This document shows positions 4,344-11,161 of a DNA stretch of 33,873 nt, in pieces. How positions within the stretch are numbered: the first letter of the stretch is position 1; every line of letters starts with the position of its first letter. This DNA comes from Clostridia bacterium (lineage in GTDB: Bacteria; Bacillota; Clostridia; Acetivibrionales; DSM-27016). A program made the translations under genes and the position numbers. The notes below the pieces were generated by a model, which had not been told where the DNA came from, did not search any database, and saw only the letters and a program-made list of their open reading frames with translations. The stretch lies in the NCBI GenBank assembly GCA_026414765.1, contig JAOAIJ010000005.1:1-33873 (forward strand), read 5' to 3'.

Positions 4344-4423
4344 CATTTGGAGCAGCATAAATGAGGAGCTAAAGCTTGAATACACAGCAATTCTGCAGCT
4401 ATCACAATCTTGCCCCATGACCA

Positions 4424-5860
4424 TCAATACGCTTTACCCCAGTAGACCATATGTTTTGCTGCCTTCCCGCAGCACATACAATTTTCTGAAAGCTGCTCCT
4501 GTTCAAAAGGAATACACCGGGCAGTAGCAGAAGTTCTCTCTTTTACCGCATCCTCACAGGCTCTTTCCCCACACCACATTGCTTTAACAAAGCCTGGGGT
4601 TTCATTAATTGTTTTTTCAAATTCATCAAGGGTTTTTGCCGTAAATGTCTTCTTATCCCTCATTTGTCTTGCTTTTTCAAGCAATCCCCTTTGGACATCA
4701 GCAAGCAACTGCGGCAGTTTTTCTTCCAATTCGTCAATTGATACAAATATCTTTTCTCTGTTATCCCTTCTTACAAGCACAACCTGATTCTTTTCTATGT
4801 CCTTGGGCCCTATCTCCAGACGTACGGGAACACCCCTCATTTCATGCTCGCTGAATTTCCATCCAGGCATTTTATCGCTGTCGTCAACTTTTACCCTTAT
4901 TTGCTTTGACAGCTTATCTTTAAGCTCATATGCCTTCTCTATGACACCTTCCTTATGTTGTTGGATCGGTATGATTACGAGCTGAATCGGCGCTATTGCC
5001 GGCGGCAGTACAAGACCACTGTCATCGCCGTGAACCATGATTACAGCACCTATTAGCCTTGTAGTCACTCCCCATGAAGTTTGATGTACATACTGGAGCT
5101 GATTATTTTTATCTGTGTATTGAATTCCGAATGCTTGCGCAAACCCATCGCCAAAATTGTGTGATGTGCCTGATTGCAGAGCTTTGCCATCATGCATAAG
5201 GCTCTCAATCGTATAGGTTGCATGTGCTCCTGCAAATTTCTCCTTCTCGGTTTTCTTTCCCTTAACAACTGGTATGGCAAGAACTTGTTCACAAAAATCT
5301 GCATACACATTCAGCATTCTAATTGTTTCTTCCTGCGCTTCCTCAGCGGCAGCATGTGCCGTATGCCCTTCCTGCCATAAGAATTCAAGTGTTCTGAGGA
5401 ATGGACGTGTTGTTTTTTCCCATCTGACGACTGAACACCATTGGTTGTATAGCTTCGGCAAATCTCTATAGGAATGTATTATGTTCGCATAGTGATCACA
5501 GAATAGAGTTTCCGATGTAGGCCTTACACATAGTTTTTCGGTAAGTTCCTCCTTGCCGCCGTGTGTAACCCATGCAACTTCAGGTGCAAACCCTTCTACA
5601 TGATCTTTTTCTTTTTGGAGCAGACTTTCAGGTATAAACATAGGCATATACACATTTTCATGCCCTGTTTCCTTAAATCTTCTGTCAAGGTCTTTTTGGA
5701 TATTCTCCCAAATTGCATAACCATATGGACGGATTATCATACAGCCTCTTACACTTGAATAATCGACAAGATCCGCTTTTTTTATTACATCCGTATACCA
5801 TTGTGCAAAATCTTCATTCATAGAGGTTATCGCCTCTACAAGTTTCTTTTCCTGTGCCAT
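4424..5860 (-). CDS. proS: Prolyl-tRNA synthetase, archaeal/eukaryote-like short type
   Basis: A class II aminoacyl-tRNA synthetase that charges tRNA-Pro. The 478-residue length, the absence of the large editing insertion seen in E. coli-type ProS, and the C-terminal Cys-containing domain (CGERACED near the end, then CMCCGK and final Tyr) mark the type 3 form. Motif 2 is visible at RWE (147-149) through [17 protein letters not shown] (154-170), and RPTSETLF (113-120) is a substrate-binding block. The longest frame begins with a TTG at 5869, but AAGGAG sits 9 bases before the ATG at 5860, so that ATG (MAQEKK) is chosen. Expression is controlled by the T-box leader upstream. Confidence 0.95.
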
Positions 5861-5880
5861 AGAAATCAACTCCTTTAAAT

Positions 5881-6110
5881 TGAAAATCCGCCCTAAAACA
5901 AATGCTTCAGGACGGAAATATTTTCCCGCGGTACCACCTAAAATTGCCTTTCTACAAGGATAGCAAGGCCATCTTCAAAGCCTCTATCGGTGCTCAACCG
6001 GCAAGCTTTCAACCTGCATCTCAGGGGTGGGAAGAAAAGCTTTGTTTAGGAGCCTCCCAGCAAATCGGCCTCCTTCTCTTGAAACATTACCTTTCGCAGT
6101 CCCTTCATAG
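5881..6110 (-). promoter_or_regulatory. T-box riboswitch leader of proS
   Basis: On the minus strand the leader contains the canonical T-box core AGGTGGTACCGCGG (plus-strand complement at 5926-5939). A 12-bp terminator hairpin follows (5888-5915) with a short T-rich tail, ending 21 bases before the proS start. A long structured 5' part resembles stem I. Uncharged tRNA binding such an RNA favours an antiterminator. Proline specificity is inferred from the downstream gene; I could not assign the specifier codon by eye. The 5' boundary is approximate. Confidence 0.92.
5882..5915 (-). terminator. T-box-controlled terminator hairpin
   Basis: On the minus strand CCGTCCTGAAGC pairs with GTTTTAGGGCGG (with G-U pairs) around an ATTT loop, followed by ATTTTC. 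The 5' arm overlaps sequence just 3' of the T-box core, as expected for mutually exclusive terminator and antiterminator. Confidence 0.8.
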
Positions 6111-6319: not shown

Positions 6320-6790
6320 ATGAAAGTAGGAATAGGTCAGGACAGCCACAGATTTGATTTTTTTGATAAGAGTAAAAAGCTCATTCTCGGAGGAGTCATA
6401 TTTGAGGACCACGCTCCTTTACAGGGGAACAGTGATGCTGACGTTGTACTTCATTCGATAACAAATGCCGTATCAGGAGTTACATGCGTAAATATACTGG
6501 GTAAAGTCAGTGATGATTTATGTCTGAAGCAGGGCATTACAGATAGCAGTGTGTATCTGAAGGAAGCACTGAAGTATCTTGAGGAGAGTAAGATTGTTCA
6601 TGTGTCTATATCGATAGAGTGTTCAACTCCAAAGATAACACCCAGAATTCACGAGATGCGGGCAAGTATATCAAAGCTATTGGATATACCGGAAAACTGT
6701 ATTGGCATTACGGCAACTACAGGAGAAGGTTTGACAGCCTTTGGACAAGGCCAGGGTATACAGGTATTCAGCTGTGTTACAGTAATATAA
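6320..6790 (+). CDS. ispF: Divergent 2-C-methyl-D-erythritol 2,4-cyclodiphosphate synthase homologue (IspF-like)
   Basis: A 156-residue IspF family member; the family converts CDP-ME-2-phosphate to MEcPP in the MEP isoprenoid pathway. The zinc ligands are present: D8 and H10 in GQDSH, and His45 in DVVLH (E. coli H42). The TPK..P motif that holds the cytidine is present around residues 103-108, and ATTGEGL (132-138) matches the ATTTEKLGF block. The usual AHSD is GNSD (His lost), ALTDA is SITNA (Asp lost), the GDIG-FPDTDP segment is NILGKVSDDLCL, and GRGEGI is GQGQGI. So it is a full-length but divergent homologue; catalytic activity is uncertain. It is divergent from proS and has its own terminator. 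Confidence 0.8.
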   Translation: MKVGIGQDSHRFDFFDKSKKLILGGVIFEDHAPLQGNSDADVVLHSITNAVSGVTCVNILGKVSDDLCLKQGITDSSVYLKEALKYLEESKIVHVSISIECSTPKITPRIHEMRASISKLLDIPENCIGITATTGEGLTAFGQGQGIQVFSCVTVI

Positions 6791-6854: not shown

Positions 6855-8072
6855 TCAGCTTCTGAATAAAACCTTTTCTCTCGTAAACATCCATGCTGCA
6901 AGACTAGTGGTAGCAATCATATAAACTATGGATGAACCTACTGCCAAAATCAGTTTTGAATAGATTATCACTCCCCCGAGCACCATCTTTATTGCCGATA
7001 TGGTATTCAATATTGGTACAAGGAACATATACACGGGAATATCATTTGCCTGCATGAACATTGTTGTATAGGCAGGTATTAAAACTACGATTATCAACAA
7101 CCCCAGATAGGTCTGAGCTTCCTTAAAGGATTTGGCATATGTACTGAGTGCTATCTGTATCCCTGTAAAAATAAACCCAAGTAAAATTGCAATACACAGT
7201 GTCAATAATACTGCAGGCACTGGCAGATCAAAGCCAGTAACATTATCCCCTACTCCCATAGTCAAAGAGTTGGGGTTCAATATGTAGCTTATTATTAGCC
7301 CTGTCAGGCTCGCTAATACAGTCATAAAAGCAAATAAGTTTACTGTAAGGAATTTACCGATAAGTATGGATATCCTTTTAGGTCTTGTTGTAAGCAAAGG
7401 CTCAAATGTATTTCTTTCTTTCTCACCGGCAATAAGGTCTGTAGCTGCGGGTATTCCTCCTGTAGCGATGAAACTGACCAGCAGCATAGGTATCAGCATG
7501 CCCAACATGGGATTGCCGCCTTTTTTGGTATCTGCTACGTTTTTATGCTCAATATTTGATGGCTGAAGGATATCGGTACTTACACCTAATGCAGAAATTC
7601 TTTCTGCGACCATTCCCATATTGAATTTTTGAATGGCCTCATTTACAATACCTACACTACCTTCTGATTTCGTCTTTGACTTATCATACATCAATCTGAT
7701 GGTAAAAGGCTTTTTATCCTTTAGTTTCTGAGCATAATCCTTATCAAAATCAAGCACAACTCTGACTTTTTCATTTCTGACTGCTTCAACAGAATCCCCT
7801 ATATTATCAATTAATTTTATATTAGGATATTCCTTGATTATTTTGCTTTTTACCATAGACTTGACTTCTTCCGTTCTGGAGTTCTCGGACAAACCGATTG
7901 TCACGTTCTCATTAATGTCCTTCTGGAGCTTTTCTACTCCGCCTCCGACAAGACCGTAAATTACGGGGAAAATAATGATAGGTACAACAATACTGGTAAT
8001 AATAGTCTTTTTGTCTCTCGTTATATCCTTTACTTCCTTCTTGAATATAGTCCAAATATGCTTTAAGTTCAT
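6855..8072 (-). CDS. ABC-2-type transporter permease (NatB-like)
   Basis: A 405-residue membrane protein. One N-terminal transmembrane helix (about 24-44) is followed by a long extracytoplasmic region and then a cluster of about five helices from around residue 187 to the end. The GEKERNTFEPLLTTRP block just after the second helix is typical of the NatB/ABC-2 export permease family. The start ATG overlaps the TAA of the ATPase gene by one base (TAATG), indicating translational coupling. The pair resembles sodium or drug export ABC-2 systems; the substrate cannot be told from sequence. Confidence 0.9.
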   Translation of the reverse strand: MNLKHIWTIFKKEVKDITRDKKTIITSIVVPIIIFPVIYGLVGGGVEKLQKDINENVTIGLSENSRTEEVKSMVKSKIIKEYPNIKLIDNIGDSVEAVRNEKVRVVLDFDKDYAQKLKDKKPFTIRLMYDKSKTKSEGSVGIVNEAIQKFNMGMVAERISALGVSTDILQPSNIEHKNVADTKKGGNPMLGMLIPMLLVSFIATGGIPAATDLIAGEKERNTFEPLLTTRPKRISILIGKFLTVNLFAFMTVLASLTGLIISYILNPNSLTMGVGDNVTGFDLPVPAVLLTLCIAILLGFIFTGIQIALSTYAKSFKEAQTYLGLLIIVVLIPAYTTMFMQANDIPVYMFLVPILNTISAIKMVLGGVIIYSKLILAVGSSIVYMIATTSLAAWMFTREKVLFRS

Positions 8073-8794
8073 TATTTATCACCTACCAATCTAATGAAGA
8101 TTTCCTCAAGATCATCATCATTGTATTTTTTCTTAAACTCATCAATTGTTCCTGTGTCCAGAAGATTTCCTTTATGAATTATGCCGATCCTGTCACATAG
8201 CTTCTCCACCTCGTTCATAGAATGGCTGGAAAATATCACAGTCTTCCCATCCTTTTTGCAATCTGCAATAAAATCATGGACATCTCTTATACTGCTTACG
8301 TCAAGTCCGGATGTAGGCTCGTCCAGAAGCATCATATCCGGGTTATGTACTATAGAACGTGCAAGAGCAACCTTTTGTTTCATACCCTTTGAAAGCTTGG
8401 AAGCTTTCCTGTCAAGGTATTCTTCCATGCCAAAAGCTTTGGCCAGGTAACTTATTCTTTTCTTAATTTCTGCCTTATTCATGTCATTCAACTCGCCGAA
8501 GTAAGCGATATTCTCTTCCGCAGTCAACCTATCATAAAGGCCGCTCTCTCCTCCGAAAAGTATACCTATATGACCCCGTACTTCTTCAGGTTTTGTTTGG
8601 ATATCAAAACCGCATATTTCAGCAGTACCCTCTGTAGGCTTCAGCATAGTAGCCAGCATCCTCAAAGTAGTTGTCTTTCCTGCCCCATTTTCTCCTAAAA
8701 GTCCAAAAATTTCTCCCTTCTTGATATCGAAGGTTATTCCATTTACTGCTGTCACCTCACCAAACCTCTTGGTGAGATTCTTAACTTTAACCAT
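8072..8794 (-). CDS. ABC transporter ATP-binding protein (NatA-like)
   Basis: A 240-residue ATPase with Walker A GENGAGKT (34-41), signature LSKGMKQ (134-140), Walker B MMLLDEP (154-160) and the switch His in SSHSM. It energises the adjoining permease. The longest frame starts with a GTG at 8803, only one base after GGAGG; the ATG at 8794 is 10 bases away and begins directly at the conserved MVKVKNLTKRFG, so it is preferred. It lies 87 bases downstream of ispD on the same strand and may be cotranscribed with it; no convincing terminator was seen in the gap. Confidence 0.92.
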   Translation of the reverse strand: MVKVKNLTKRFGEVTAVNGITFDIKKGEIFGLLGENGAGKTTTLRMLATMLKPTEGTAEICGFDIQTKPEEVRGHIGILFGGESGLYDRLTAEENIAYFGELNDMNKAEIKKRISYLAKAFGMEEYLDRKASKLSKGMKQKVALARSIVHNPDMMLLDEPTSGLDVSSIRDVHDFIADCKKDGKTVIFSSHSMNEVEKLCDRIGIIHKGNLLDTGTIDEFKKKYNDDDLEEIFIRLVGDK

Positions 8795-8881
8795 TTCATT
8801 CACTCCTCCATACTCTGGAATTAATTTTATCTGTTATGCTATTTACTTTATTTTTTATACAGATGCAATCGATACCTTCCA

Positions 8882-9595
8882 TCAAAGCCGTCCAGAATGC
8901 TCTATAATTGCATCAGCAAATGCCAAATCCTCTTTTGTGGTAATTTTTATGTTATCATATCTTCCCATCACAAGTTTGGTACACACGCCTAATCTTTCAG
9001 CAAGTATGGCATCATCTGTACCTGTGTACCCTTCCTCTTCCGCTTTCTTATGGGCTTCCATTATTATGTCGTATTTGAACGCCTGAGGTGTTTGAATGGA
9101 CCACAAAACATTTCTCTCAAGGGTTTCAGCTATAAAGCCGTCCTTATCACTCTTTTTTATTGTGTCCTTGACAGGCACTGCTGCACAGGCTGCACCAAAT
9201 CCCCTGGCTGCTTCTATGCATGCCATTATCGTTTCTTCTCTCACAAAGGGTCTTGCCCCATCATGTATCAATATAATATCCGATTCCCTTTTAGCTTCTT
9301 TCAAACCGTTATAGACCGAATTCTGCCTTTCGCTTCCACCTGCCACAACGGATTTTACCTTTTCAAACCCATACAGGTCTATGATACTTTTTTTGCAATA
9401 CATTATATCAGCTTCATTTACCACAAGTATTATTTCGTTTACTGAATCACAATCTTCAAAAGCCTGAATCGTCCTTGCAATAACCGGTTTTCCACATACA
9501 TCCACATACTGTTTGTTAATATCCATATTCATGCGTGTTCCTTTACCCGCCGCCACAATAACAACACTTACAGATATTCCAGCTCCTGTTTCCAT
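8882..9595 (-). CDS. ispD: 2-C-methyl-D-erythritol 4-phosphate cytidylyltransferase
   Basis: Transfers CMP from CTP to MEP, the third step of the MEP pathway. Family motifs: VVIVAAGKGTRMN (10-22) with the nucleotide-binding loop, NKQY, GGSERQNSVYNGL, IHDGARPFV, PVKDTIK, TPQAF and GTDDAILAERLG. The frame is open to 9712, but the ATG at 9595 is preceded by GGAGGAAGA and gives 237 residues, the usual length. The upstream extension would translate a palindromic operator array and is rejected. It lies next to the yacL-like gene, as in Bacillus subtilis. Confidence 0.95.
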   Translation of the reverse strand: METGAGISVSVVIVAAGKGTRMNMDINKQYVDVCGKPVIARTIQAFEDCDSVNEIILVVNEADIMYCKKSIIDLYGFEKVKSVVAGGSERQNSVYNGLKEAKRESDIILIHDGARPFVREETIMACIEAARGFGAACAAVPVKDTIKKSDKDGFIAETLERNVLWSIQTPQAFKYDIIMEAHKKAEEEGYTGTDDAILAERLGVCTKLVMGRYDNIKITTKEDLAFADAIIEHSGRL

Positions 9596-9635
9596 TCTTC
9601 CTCCACACCAGGCCCTTCCGGCTGTAATCCTCAAC

Positions 9636-9688
9636 ACTATATCATTATGCGATATATCGTTAAGTGATATATCGCATAATGATATAGT
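9636..9688. repeat. Operator-like array: four GATATATC-type palindromes at 15-bp spacing, in a 23-bp-arm inverted repeat
   Basis: Octamers ACTATATC (9636), GATATATC (9651), GATATATC (9666) and GATATAGT (9681) start exactly 15 bases apart. The spacers are ATTATGC, GTTAAGT and GCATAAT. The whole forms a perfect inverted repeat (9636-9658 with 9666-9688, 7-base centre). It overlaps the -10 box of the predicted ispD promoter and covers its start site, so it looks like a repressor-binding region. The regulator is not known. Confidence 0.75.
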
Positions 9689-9712
9689 ACTACCACATCC
9701 TGATTTTGTCAA
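9684..9712 (-). promoter_or_regulatory. SigA-type promoter of ispD
   Basis: On the minus strand, TTGACA (9707-9712), a 17-bp spacer and TACTAT (9684-9689). The -10 box lies inside the outermost unit of the palindrome array. Confidence 0.75.
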
Positions 9713-9735
9713 TACAATGATTAAAACCCAATAAA

Positions 9736-9759
9736 AAAAGCTGTATTCATACAGCTTTT
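9736..9759 (-). terminator. Terminator of the PIN-TRAM (yacL-like) gene
   Basis: On the minus strand an 11-bp stem, AAAAGCTGTAT/ATACAGCTTTT, overlaps the TAA stop and is followed by TTTTTTTATT. It insulates ispD from its upstream neighbour. Confidence 0.88.
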
Positions 9760-10819
9760 ATATTACTCTCTCTATAACATTTTTGGGTTTTGCAAATATC
9801 ATCCGCCCCGCAGCTGTTTGAATAACACTGGTGACCATCACACTCACCAGTTCGCCCATATACCTCTTGCCACCTTCTACTACTATCATTGTACCATCAT
9901 CCAGATATCCTATTCCTTGTCCATTTTCTTTACCGTCTTTAACTATCTGAATGGACATCTCCTCTCCAGGCAGGGCAATAGGTTTCATTGCATTTGCCAG
10001 CTCATTTATGTTCAAAACCTGTACCCCATGGACATTAGCTACTTTGTTAAGATTATAATCATTGGTTATTATTGTACAACCAGTCCTTTTAGCTGCCTTA
10101 AGTAATCTATCATCTACTTCGGCTCCTGTCGCATCATCAAAGTTTTCAATTTTGACAGGAAAAGCAAGCTCTTTCTGCAAAGCATTCAACACGTCTAATC
10201 CACGTCTGCCCCGGTTTCTCTTTAATCCATCCGGCGAATCCGCAATGTGCCTTAATTCCTCCAGGACGAAGTTCGGAATAACCAGCTGTCCTTCCAGAAA
10301 GCCGCTTCTACAAATGTCAACAATCCTACCATCAATAATAACATTTGTATCGAGCATTTTTAGCTCCATAGCACCTTTCTGCGACAATCCCTTTGCCGAA
10401 TCCGAAAAGGATTCATGCTTCTTGCCAAGTGCTATACCCACCCCTATACATGCAAATAAAATATTAGATATGATAGAAAGCGGTAGCCCAACAATACCTA
10501 TCCTGTTAACAGGTATATTTATAAGATTAGCAACGATAAGTCCTGCGATCAGACCTGCCGAACTCACTGTAATCTCGTATATAGTCATTTTCTGCAATGT
10601 CGCTTCGATTTTGTCAAGCAGCTTCAATACTGCCGATATTATCTGATTGGCAGTAGCATAGAATAATAGTGCGCAAATCACAGACAAAATAAAGAATATA
10701 CCAAATTCAATACCTGTCTGAAAAGAGATATCATTCACCATGAAGATTGTTCTCGTCAGTGTAAACCCGGTAATTGCGCCTATTAAAGCAAATGAGCCCC
10801 TTATTACATTGTTTATCAC
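9758..10819 (-). CDS. Membrane-anchored PIN-TRAM domain protein (YacL-like)
   Basis: A 353-residue protein. The N-terminal third has about four transmembrane helices. A PIN nuclease-like domain follows, with acidic residues in LDTNVIIDGRIVDI, VLEELRHIAD, VDDRLLKAA and TNDYNL. A C-terminal TRAM-like segment (GIGYLDDGTMIVVEGG) ends it. The layout matches B. subtilis YacL, which sits at the same place beside ispD. The biological role of YacL is unsettled; PIN domains are generally metal-dependent RNases. The longest frame begins with a GTG at 10843; the GTG at 10819 is preferred because GGGGAG lies 9 bases before it and the product then starts like YacL. Confidence 0.88.
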   Translation of the reverse strand: MINNVIRGSFALIGAITGFTLTRTIFMVNDISFQTGIEFGIFFILSVICALLFYATANQIISAVLKLLDKIEATLQKMTIYEITVSSAGLIAGLIVANLINIPVNRIGIVGLPLSIISNILFACIGVGIALGKKHESFSDSAKGLSQKGAMELKMLDTNVIIDGRIVDICRSGFLEGQLVIPNFVLEELRHIADSPDGLKRNRGRRGLDVLNALQKELAFPVKIENFDDATGAEVDDRLLKAAKRTGCTIITNDYNLNKVANVHGVQVLNINELANAMKPIALPGEEMSIQIVKDGKENGQGIGYLDDGTMIVVEGGKRYMGELVSVMVTSVIQTAAGRMIFAKPKNVIERVI

Positions 10820-11161
10820 TATACCTAACTCCCCTATAGACACCTGAATATGTTTCTTTCCTATAGATAAATGGTTATATCATGCAATATACAGTTGTAT
10901 ACACTAAATCAACAAAAAGTGCTTGCCGCTAATGTATTAGTACCCCTATTGCAGTCACACGGTTCACAGTTAAAGTAATTTTAGCTTCAGAGTTGGTTGA
11001 CTATAGTTAAGGCCCGGGAAAATATATCAGACATTTCTGCTAGAAGCTTCATGCCGGATAGTTCTCAGTCAGGCTAAAATCTATATCCTCAATTTAATAA
11101 TCAAAACAAAAAAATGAAATAAATAATAAGACTAGTTTTATTCTATTTAGATATTAATCAA
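10820..11161. other. Intergenic region between yacL-like gene and carD, no feature seen
   Basis: This stretch holds no open frame longer than about 21 codons on either strand, no convincing terminator for carD and no recognised RNA. A promoter for the yacL-like gene must lie here or further upstream, but I could not place one with confidence. Confidence 0.5.

Follow-up and report, generated by a model that had tools for sequence, protein, structure and literature searches.

A 15-bp-step octamer array over the ispD promoter of a Clostridia bacterium as a probable PadR-family operator acting in trans

We analyzed a window of 33,873 nucleotides (the whole stretch of DNA under study, which is an entire contig, G000:C5, of a 4.56-Mb Clostridia genome in 53 contigs) and found that the promoter of ispD is overlapped by four octamers at an exact 15-bp step. 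An array of the same type precedes a padR gene on a different contig (C43) of this genome. Very probably, the array over ispD is an operator that forms part of the promoter and has a regulatory role, most likely in cooperative repression. We are fairly confident that dimers of the C43 PadR protein would occupy it to repress an ispD–natA–natB operon in trans, along with their own padR–DUF2812 operon. The initial annotation had proposed cooperative repression or signal control of ispD: of this, an operator in the promoter is retained as very probable, but the regulated unit is probably the ispD–natA–natB operon rather than ispD alone. As far as the sequence allows us to judge, a PadR-linked array is present here in trans on a presumed operon beginning with ispD.

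Geometry of the array and its promoter

The array (9636..9688) lies between the stop of the PIN/TRAM gene (9758-10843, minus strand), the upstream neighbor of ispD, and ispD itself (8882..9595, minus strand; PF01128, TIGR00453). On the plus strand its octamers read ACTATATC at 9636, GATATATC at 9651, GATATATC at 9666 and GATATAGT at 9681. These positions and their strict 15-base period agree with the initial annotation, as does the perfect inverted repeat with 23-nt arms (9636-9658 and 9666-9688) around a 7-nt center. The four palindrome copies it described come down to two: only the inner octamers are exact copies of GATATATC, and the outer ones, ACTATATC and GATATAGT, each match it at 6 of 8 positions.

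The array can equivalently be read as three overlapping 19-bp palindromes of the form TATATC-N7-GATATA, namely TATATC-ATTATGC-GATATA (9638..9656), TATATC-GTTAAGT-GATATA (9653..9671) and TATATC-GCATAAT-GATATA (9668..9686), which we propose as putative PadR dimer sites 1 to 3. The best-matching pair between the two arrays of the genome, site 2 here and the first site at padR, is identical at 16 of 19 positions. Across the array loci, spacer bases on either side of the central octamer pair with each other more often than expected from shuffling, at 302 against a shuffled mean of 200 and with none of 2000 shuffles as high, in a shuffle that ignores the relatedness of loci. Such complementarity fits extended half-sites read outward from the octamers, i.e., dimers on TATATC-N7-GATATA. 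The octamer as the site of a single dimer is less likely, because known PadR half-sites are further apart and the spacers are complementary.

The ispD promoter, TTGACA-17-TACTAT on the minus strand from 9712 to 9684, consists of a −35 match at 9707..9712 and a −10 match at 9684..9689, in keeping with the 17-bp-spaced TTGACA promoter described earlier. The outermost octamer (9681-9688) had been said to contain the −10 box; the two do overlap, but by five bases, as the −10 begins a single nucleotide ahead of the first octamer in transcriptional order, like that of the padR promoter. A predicted intrinsic terminator (9736..9759, minus strand) 3′ of the PIN/TRAM gene parts that gene from ispD.

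Using the three-octamer pattern TATATC-N7-GATATATC-N7-GATATA and allowing 3 mismatches at most, we recovered solely the ispD array in the window (two overlapping matches) and nothing in 100 dinucleotide shuffles of it. In the 4.56-Mb assembly, the same search gave four overlapping matches at two places, ispD and C43; a reversed control pattern gave 2 matches. The octamer GATATATC is by itself unremarkable, with two or more copies in 14 of 100 shuffles. Across the order (58 genomes, Ruminiclostridium cellobioparum among them as judged from the identical place of L164 and G054:C45), an array with up to 1 mismatch is present in 15 genomes, this one included, as against one genome for the reversed pattern and none for a 14-bp step (6-base spacers). 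A plasmid search for the array gave no match. Looser patterns yielded no further regulon members: at 1 mismatch the single-site pattern has 80 places in the genome (reversed control 57), and at 3 mismatches the two-octamer pattern has 98 (reversed control 65). A match on C18, which falls within a reading frame that looks TetR-like by a motif, was set aside as chance. By these sequence comparisons, the array is a real, non-random and recurrent kind of PadR-linked operator.

The candidate regulator and the wider occurrence of the array

The C43 array (locus L016) features AATATATC at 4995, GATATATC at 5010, GATATAAC at 5025 and GATATAAG at 5040. It lies directly upstream of a gene for a 114-aa PadR-family protein (PF03551, 2.3e-15, 56.8 bits against a cut-off of 27), which is followed by a DUF2812 gene (PF11193, 1.5e-30), and it overlaps the −10 of the padR promoter, TTGACA-17-TAATAT (L016 4971-4999). 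This locus fits the group characterized by three or more octamers at a 15-bp step with PadR directly downstream; the ispD locus fits it by its array, with the PadR gene in trans. The genome codes for eight PadR proteins. Against a profile of the 95 listed array-linked PadRs of other genomes (none from this genome), the C43 protein scores 145.7 bits and the remaining seven 26.6 to 63.6 bits, and the loci of these seven, each covered with 1.5 kb of flank to either side as far as the contig extends, are free of the array. Since its gene is preceded by an array of this kind in an identical promoter register, the C43 PadR is the probable regulator of the ispD array; both the regulator family and this probable cognate protein are well supported at the sequence level. 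The initial annotation knew of no described regulator with this site: the site is indeed unlike the published PadR motif, but a PadR-family protein can now be identified.

The AlphaFold2 model of the C43 PadR (pLDDT 92.9) predicts a winged helix with a long C-terminal helix (81-109). Its best PDB matches are LmrR structures, with Bacillus cereus PadR (4esf) also among the matches; by phmmer, similarity to solved PadR-like chains, LmrR included, is low (best E 1.2e-4). The model of the DUF2812 protein (L016:5396-5947; pLDDT 94.7) displays two long C-terminal helices. It has no PDB match at E up to 0.001 and no notable sequence relative in the PDB, which makes it a candidate for an undescribed fold. 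It possibly serves as a signal input.

A scan of species-representative genomes recovered at least 116 array stretches. Among the 116 listed, a PadR frame, detected with a profile built from the eight PadRs of this genome and not with Pfam, lies directly downstream in 95; by comparison, of 4877 random positions taken >600 bp away in these loci, 46 have a PadR downstream. Under another distance rule, the count is 91 of 137 listed arrays, the 137 including 21 viral contigs that all lack PadR. A further gene (at least 80 aa, within 200 bp) follows padR in 76 of the 95 listed loci and codes for DUF2812 in 63 of these 76. Among 45 second or third genes from listed loci, 11 encode an ABC ATPase domain and 10 an ABC2_membrane_3 domain. 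The listed PadR-linked hosts include Bacillota, Chloroflexota and Acidobacteriota as well as one Bathyarchaeota and one Nanoarchaeota record. In the latter two (L174 and L177), the array stands beside a PadR-like frame (3.1e-14 in the Bathyarchaeota record, 1.9e-10 in the Nanoarchaeota record). Within the order, the 14 loci from the other 14 array-bearing genomes include PadR in 12 and a padR–DUF2812–ABC ATPase row in eight; L208 and L221 are devoid of all three.

Arrays distant from a PadR gene are unusual. Among 40 array–PadR genomes, 30 have one pattern match and five others have extra matches within 50 bp of the first; the last five have six separate extra places, of which five have a PadR of their own and one (L291, with one mismatch) does not. 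Among the 21 of the 116 listed loci that lack a PadR neighbor are simple tandem repeats as well as genes of various functions. In the Ktedonobacteria, arrays near or inside non-PadR genes (L084 and L173 from Ktedonobacter racemifer; L099, L104, L119 and L171) are possibly trans targets. A set of IMG/VR contigs (L187, L189-L193, L197, L198, L200, L202, L204, L205 and L207) has in common a repeat of CTAGATATATC-like units at 15-bp steps, with no PadR nearby. Arrays also occur twice within one locus: in a genome of the same family (L223, G001:C3), the array and the first padR codons occur twice about 1.2 kb apart (4358-4503 and 5545-5909), with the upstream copy soon diverging into other sequence, and in L226 (4951-5034) and L227 (4784-4856) two adjoining three-octamer arrays precede one padR–DUF2812–ABC ATPase row.

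The ispD and padR promoters have the common form TTGACA-17-TANTATATC-N7-GATATATC, with the −10 one base ahead of the first octamer, a register that would explain why this octamer is ACTATATC in place of GATATATC at ispD. A sigma-70-like promoter points towards PadR in 83 of the 95 listed array–PadR loci. Counted from the first octamer, the −10 of these promoters begins most often at −1 (33 loci), followed by +32 (11) and −4 (nine), and sixteen different positions account for the remaining 30. Since 47 of the 95 also yield a promoter-like string on the other strand, the informative part is the clustering alone; the octamer itself looks like a −10, so that part of the register count follows from the array as such, and the TTGACA element located 17 bp further upstream provides the independent evidence. 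The flanks in the 95 listed loci show T before the first octamer in 55 and A as its first base in 68 (compare TA-N-TATATC). Seven of 391 genomes of the class contain the promoter pattern in this register (up to 1 mismatch), among them this genome with its two places; PadR lies downstream at five of the six places elsewhere, the sixth (L296) being without it.

The ispD–natA–natB operon and the competing explanations

Downstream of ispD lie genes for a natA-like ABC transporter ATPase (8072..8794) and a natB-like ABC-2 permease (6855..8072), both on the minus strand and presumably the second and third genes of an operon. No promoter or terminator match was found on this strand in the ispD–natA interval; the two terminator-like matches on the operon strand, within natA (8626-8609) and natB (7117-7102), are close in number to the shuffled mean of 1.1. 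Convergent to natB is ispF (PF02542; window 6320-6790, plus strand), and two MEP-pathway genes consequently flank the transporter. To our knowledge, no link between the functions of ispD and natAB has been described.

Of 29 further ispD loci from the order, the row ispD–natA–natB (6855-9595 in the window) is found in 12 (L043-L045, L051, L053-L056, L064, L067, L068 and L070, with natA matched in two pieces in L068 and L070), all without the array, which suggests that the operon is probably older than the operator seen here. Absence of the array upstream of ispD in close relatives had been named by the initial annotation as counting against its reading. The array is in fact absent upstream of ispD at all 29 other loci, in a sample without same-genus genomes. 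Further, it is absent (up to 1 mismatch) within 20 kb of ispD in each of the 39 further genomes of the order where ispD could be placed, none of them from the same genus, which argues against an old ispD-specific control. Array control of ispD thus looks lineage-specific.

In three Clostridium genomes, C. yunnanense (L074), Clostridium sp. C8-1-8 (L175) and C. manihotivorum (L288, from the same genome as L120), we found the row array–padR–DUF2812–natA–natB; the L288 array has one mismatch and was missed by the octamer scan at 6/8. Their proteins are 58-60% (NatA) and 33% (NatB) identical to those of this genome, and the gene set that is split here over two arrayed operons forms one arrayed row there. 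This accompaniment of such a PadR by natAB relatives makes the ABC transporter a better-supported target than ispD. In a NatA tree of 30 rows (ispD-linked and array-linked sequences only, nearness being relative to that sample), the NatA of this genome falls among the ispD-linked versions of the order, with the three PadR-linked Clostridium versions as sister (99/99). An origin by splitting of a Clostridium-like natAB operon is unsupported, given this placement; the tree position makes it more likely that an existing ispD–natAB operon gained the operator.

These comparisons bear on what the array is meant to control. If a PadR operator were acting on ispD as its intended target, the supply of isoprenoid precursors would be tuned and the transporter merely carried along. 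The array does stand directly at ispD, the first gene, and the age of the ispD–natA–natB arrangement leaves room for the two functions to belong together. We nevertheless regard this reading as unlikely: ispD is encoded in none of the 116 listed array loci, ABC ATPases are recurrent in array–PadR operons, both among the listed second and third genes and in the order, and natAB itself is part of such operons in Clostridium. That a different regulator, either a PadR paralog or an unrelated protein, binds the ispD array is quite improbable. There are seven further PadRs to choose from, and from sequence the half-sites might be read by other families, but the paralogs have array-free loci and far lower scores against the array-linked profile.

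A role mainly at the RNA level, in which a 5′ stem-loop would stabilize the ispD mRNA or modulate its translation, appears rather improbable, even though a 12-bp stem with a 7-nt loop is predicted (9647..9677, minus strand) at the estimated mRNA 5′ end, the leader folds at −22.5 kcal/mol (z −2.4), the padR leader also beats its shuffles (−13.3, z −3.1), and the perfect 23-bp arms exceed what the octamers require. Against it, the padR stem pairs differently, no Rfam family scored above the cut-off in 8700-10900, and the feature common to both loci is the octamer step and register in the DNA, which extends upstream of the estimated start into the −10. A 5′ RNA stem may add to control, but it does not explain this shared register. 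Highly improbable, finally, is that the 15-bp repeat arose by chance or by mobility and regulates nothing. Some arrays are indeed plain 15-bp tandem repeats without PadR (L073, L098, L134 and L154), and the viral contigs contain a similar repeat; yet the clean shuffles and 14-bp control, the promoter register common to ispD and padR, and the ispD spacers, which are not tandem copies of one another, speak for an operator. The initial annotation had allowed that a mobile repeat scattered over unrelated loci would undo its reading; elsewhere, the arrays lie mostly at PadR promoters (95 of the 116 listed).

Proposed mechanism and comparison with known systems

We therefore return to the C43 PadR as a repressor acting in trans. 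Its dimers would sit on the three overlapping TATATC-N7-GATATA sites, one per 15 bp, with each GATATATC octamer shared by two adjacent dimers. Neighboring dimers would lie about 150-154 degrees apart around the helix (15/10.5 turns), and we infer from this turn that they could overlap at the shared TATA and pack without clash. The earlier remark that a 15-bp step places neighbors on different sides accords with such a turn, but the spacing is a rule of the family and not an anomaly. Together, the dimers would occlude the −10 box as well as the start region, thereby blocking RNA polymerase, and padR–DUF2812 would be repressed through the same arrangement. Some inducer, either bound by PadR or signaled via DUF2812, would lift the repression, and derepression would raise the ABC transporter together with IspD.

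The prediction made here is of a likely chemical sensor that switches an isoprenoid-synthesis gene together with an ABC transporter, and it can be tested directly with one protein and two promoters. More generally, the operator code of a widespread PadR subfamily would allow regulators, partners (DUF2812) and targets to be assigned from sequence, above all in Bacillota. A more speculative extension, which we consider doubtful, is that a PadR–DUF2812 switch captured ispD so that an envelope-acting compound raises both the ABC transporter and the supply of undecaprenyl carrier, with the number of octamers setting the steepness of the response and GATATATC per 15 bp being the general operator code of a large PadR subfamily across several phyla. 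If it held, the literature covered would contain no earlier instance of a PadR repressor governing the MEP pathway.

In the open-licence literature, we found no description of the GATATATC array, which might exist in subscription papers, and nothing joining PadR with DUF2812 or ispD with PadR and an operon. The PadR consensus published in the available excerpts of PMC4517056, PMC3506622 and PMC5428041 is ATGT-N8-ACAT. With up to 1 mismatch, no match to it overlaps the ispD or the padR array, and its totals are 23 in the window against 21.1 expected and 4 in L016 against 7.3. The letters TATATC in the excerpts of PMC4517056 and PMC2774856 occur in primers.

The closest parallel is LmrR–lmrCD of Lactococcus lactis, in which, according to the available text of PMC5428041 and PMC4517056, a small PadR winged-helix protein is an autorepressor that also represses the operon of an ABC transporter. 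The modeled C43 PadR is closest to LmrR structures, and its predicted long C-terminal helix resembles the dimerization helix of LmrR and bcPadR. The operators differ, that of LmrR being ATGT-N8-ACAT (with a 10-bp spacer at lmrCD) in the same excerpts as against TATATC-N7-GATATA in a 15-bp tandem here, as do the transporters, the heterodimeric LmrCD as against a NatA/NatB-like system behind ispD.

In Listeria monocytogenes, a PadR-type regulator whose loss derepresses a separate ABC operon, lieAB, likewise shares a two-gene operon, LftR–LftS, with a DUF protein (PMC4517056, PMC6457526, in part). The partner there is DUF1048 and here DUF2812. The LftR operator OP-1 is described in these excerpts as partially palindromic, and the authors left direct control of lieAB open and saw no site common to both promoters. 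Bacillus subtilis PadR (PDB 5x11, a Foldseek match) is a family member solved on operator DNA, and is longer (176-181 residues) than the 114-aa C43 protein. Two LmrR dimers were measured on one lmrCD operator, and two dimers per operator are also given for QacR and DtxR (both in the excerpts of PMC5428041). QacR and DtxR belong to other protein families, and the arrangement proposed here differs from theirs in that three or more PadR dimers would share octamers at a 15-bp step.
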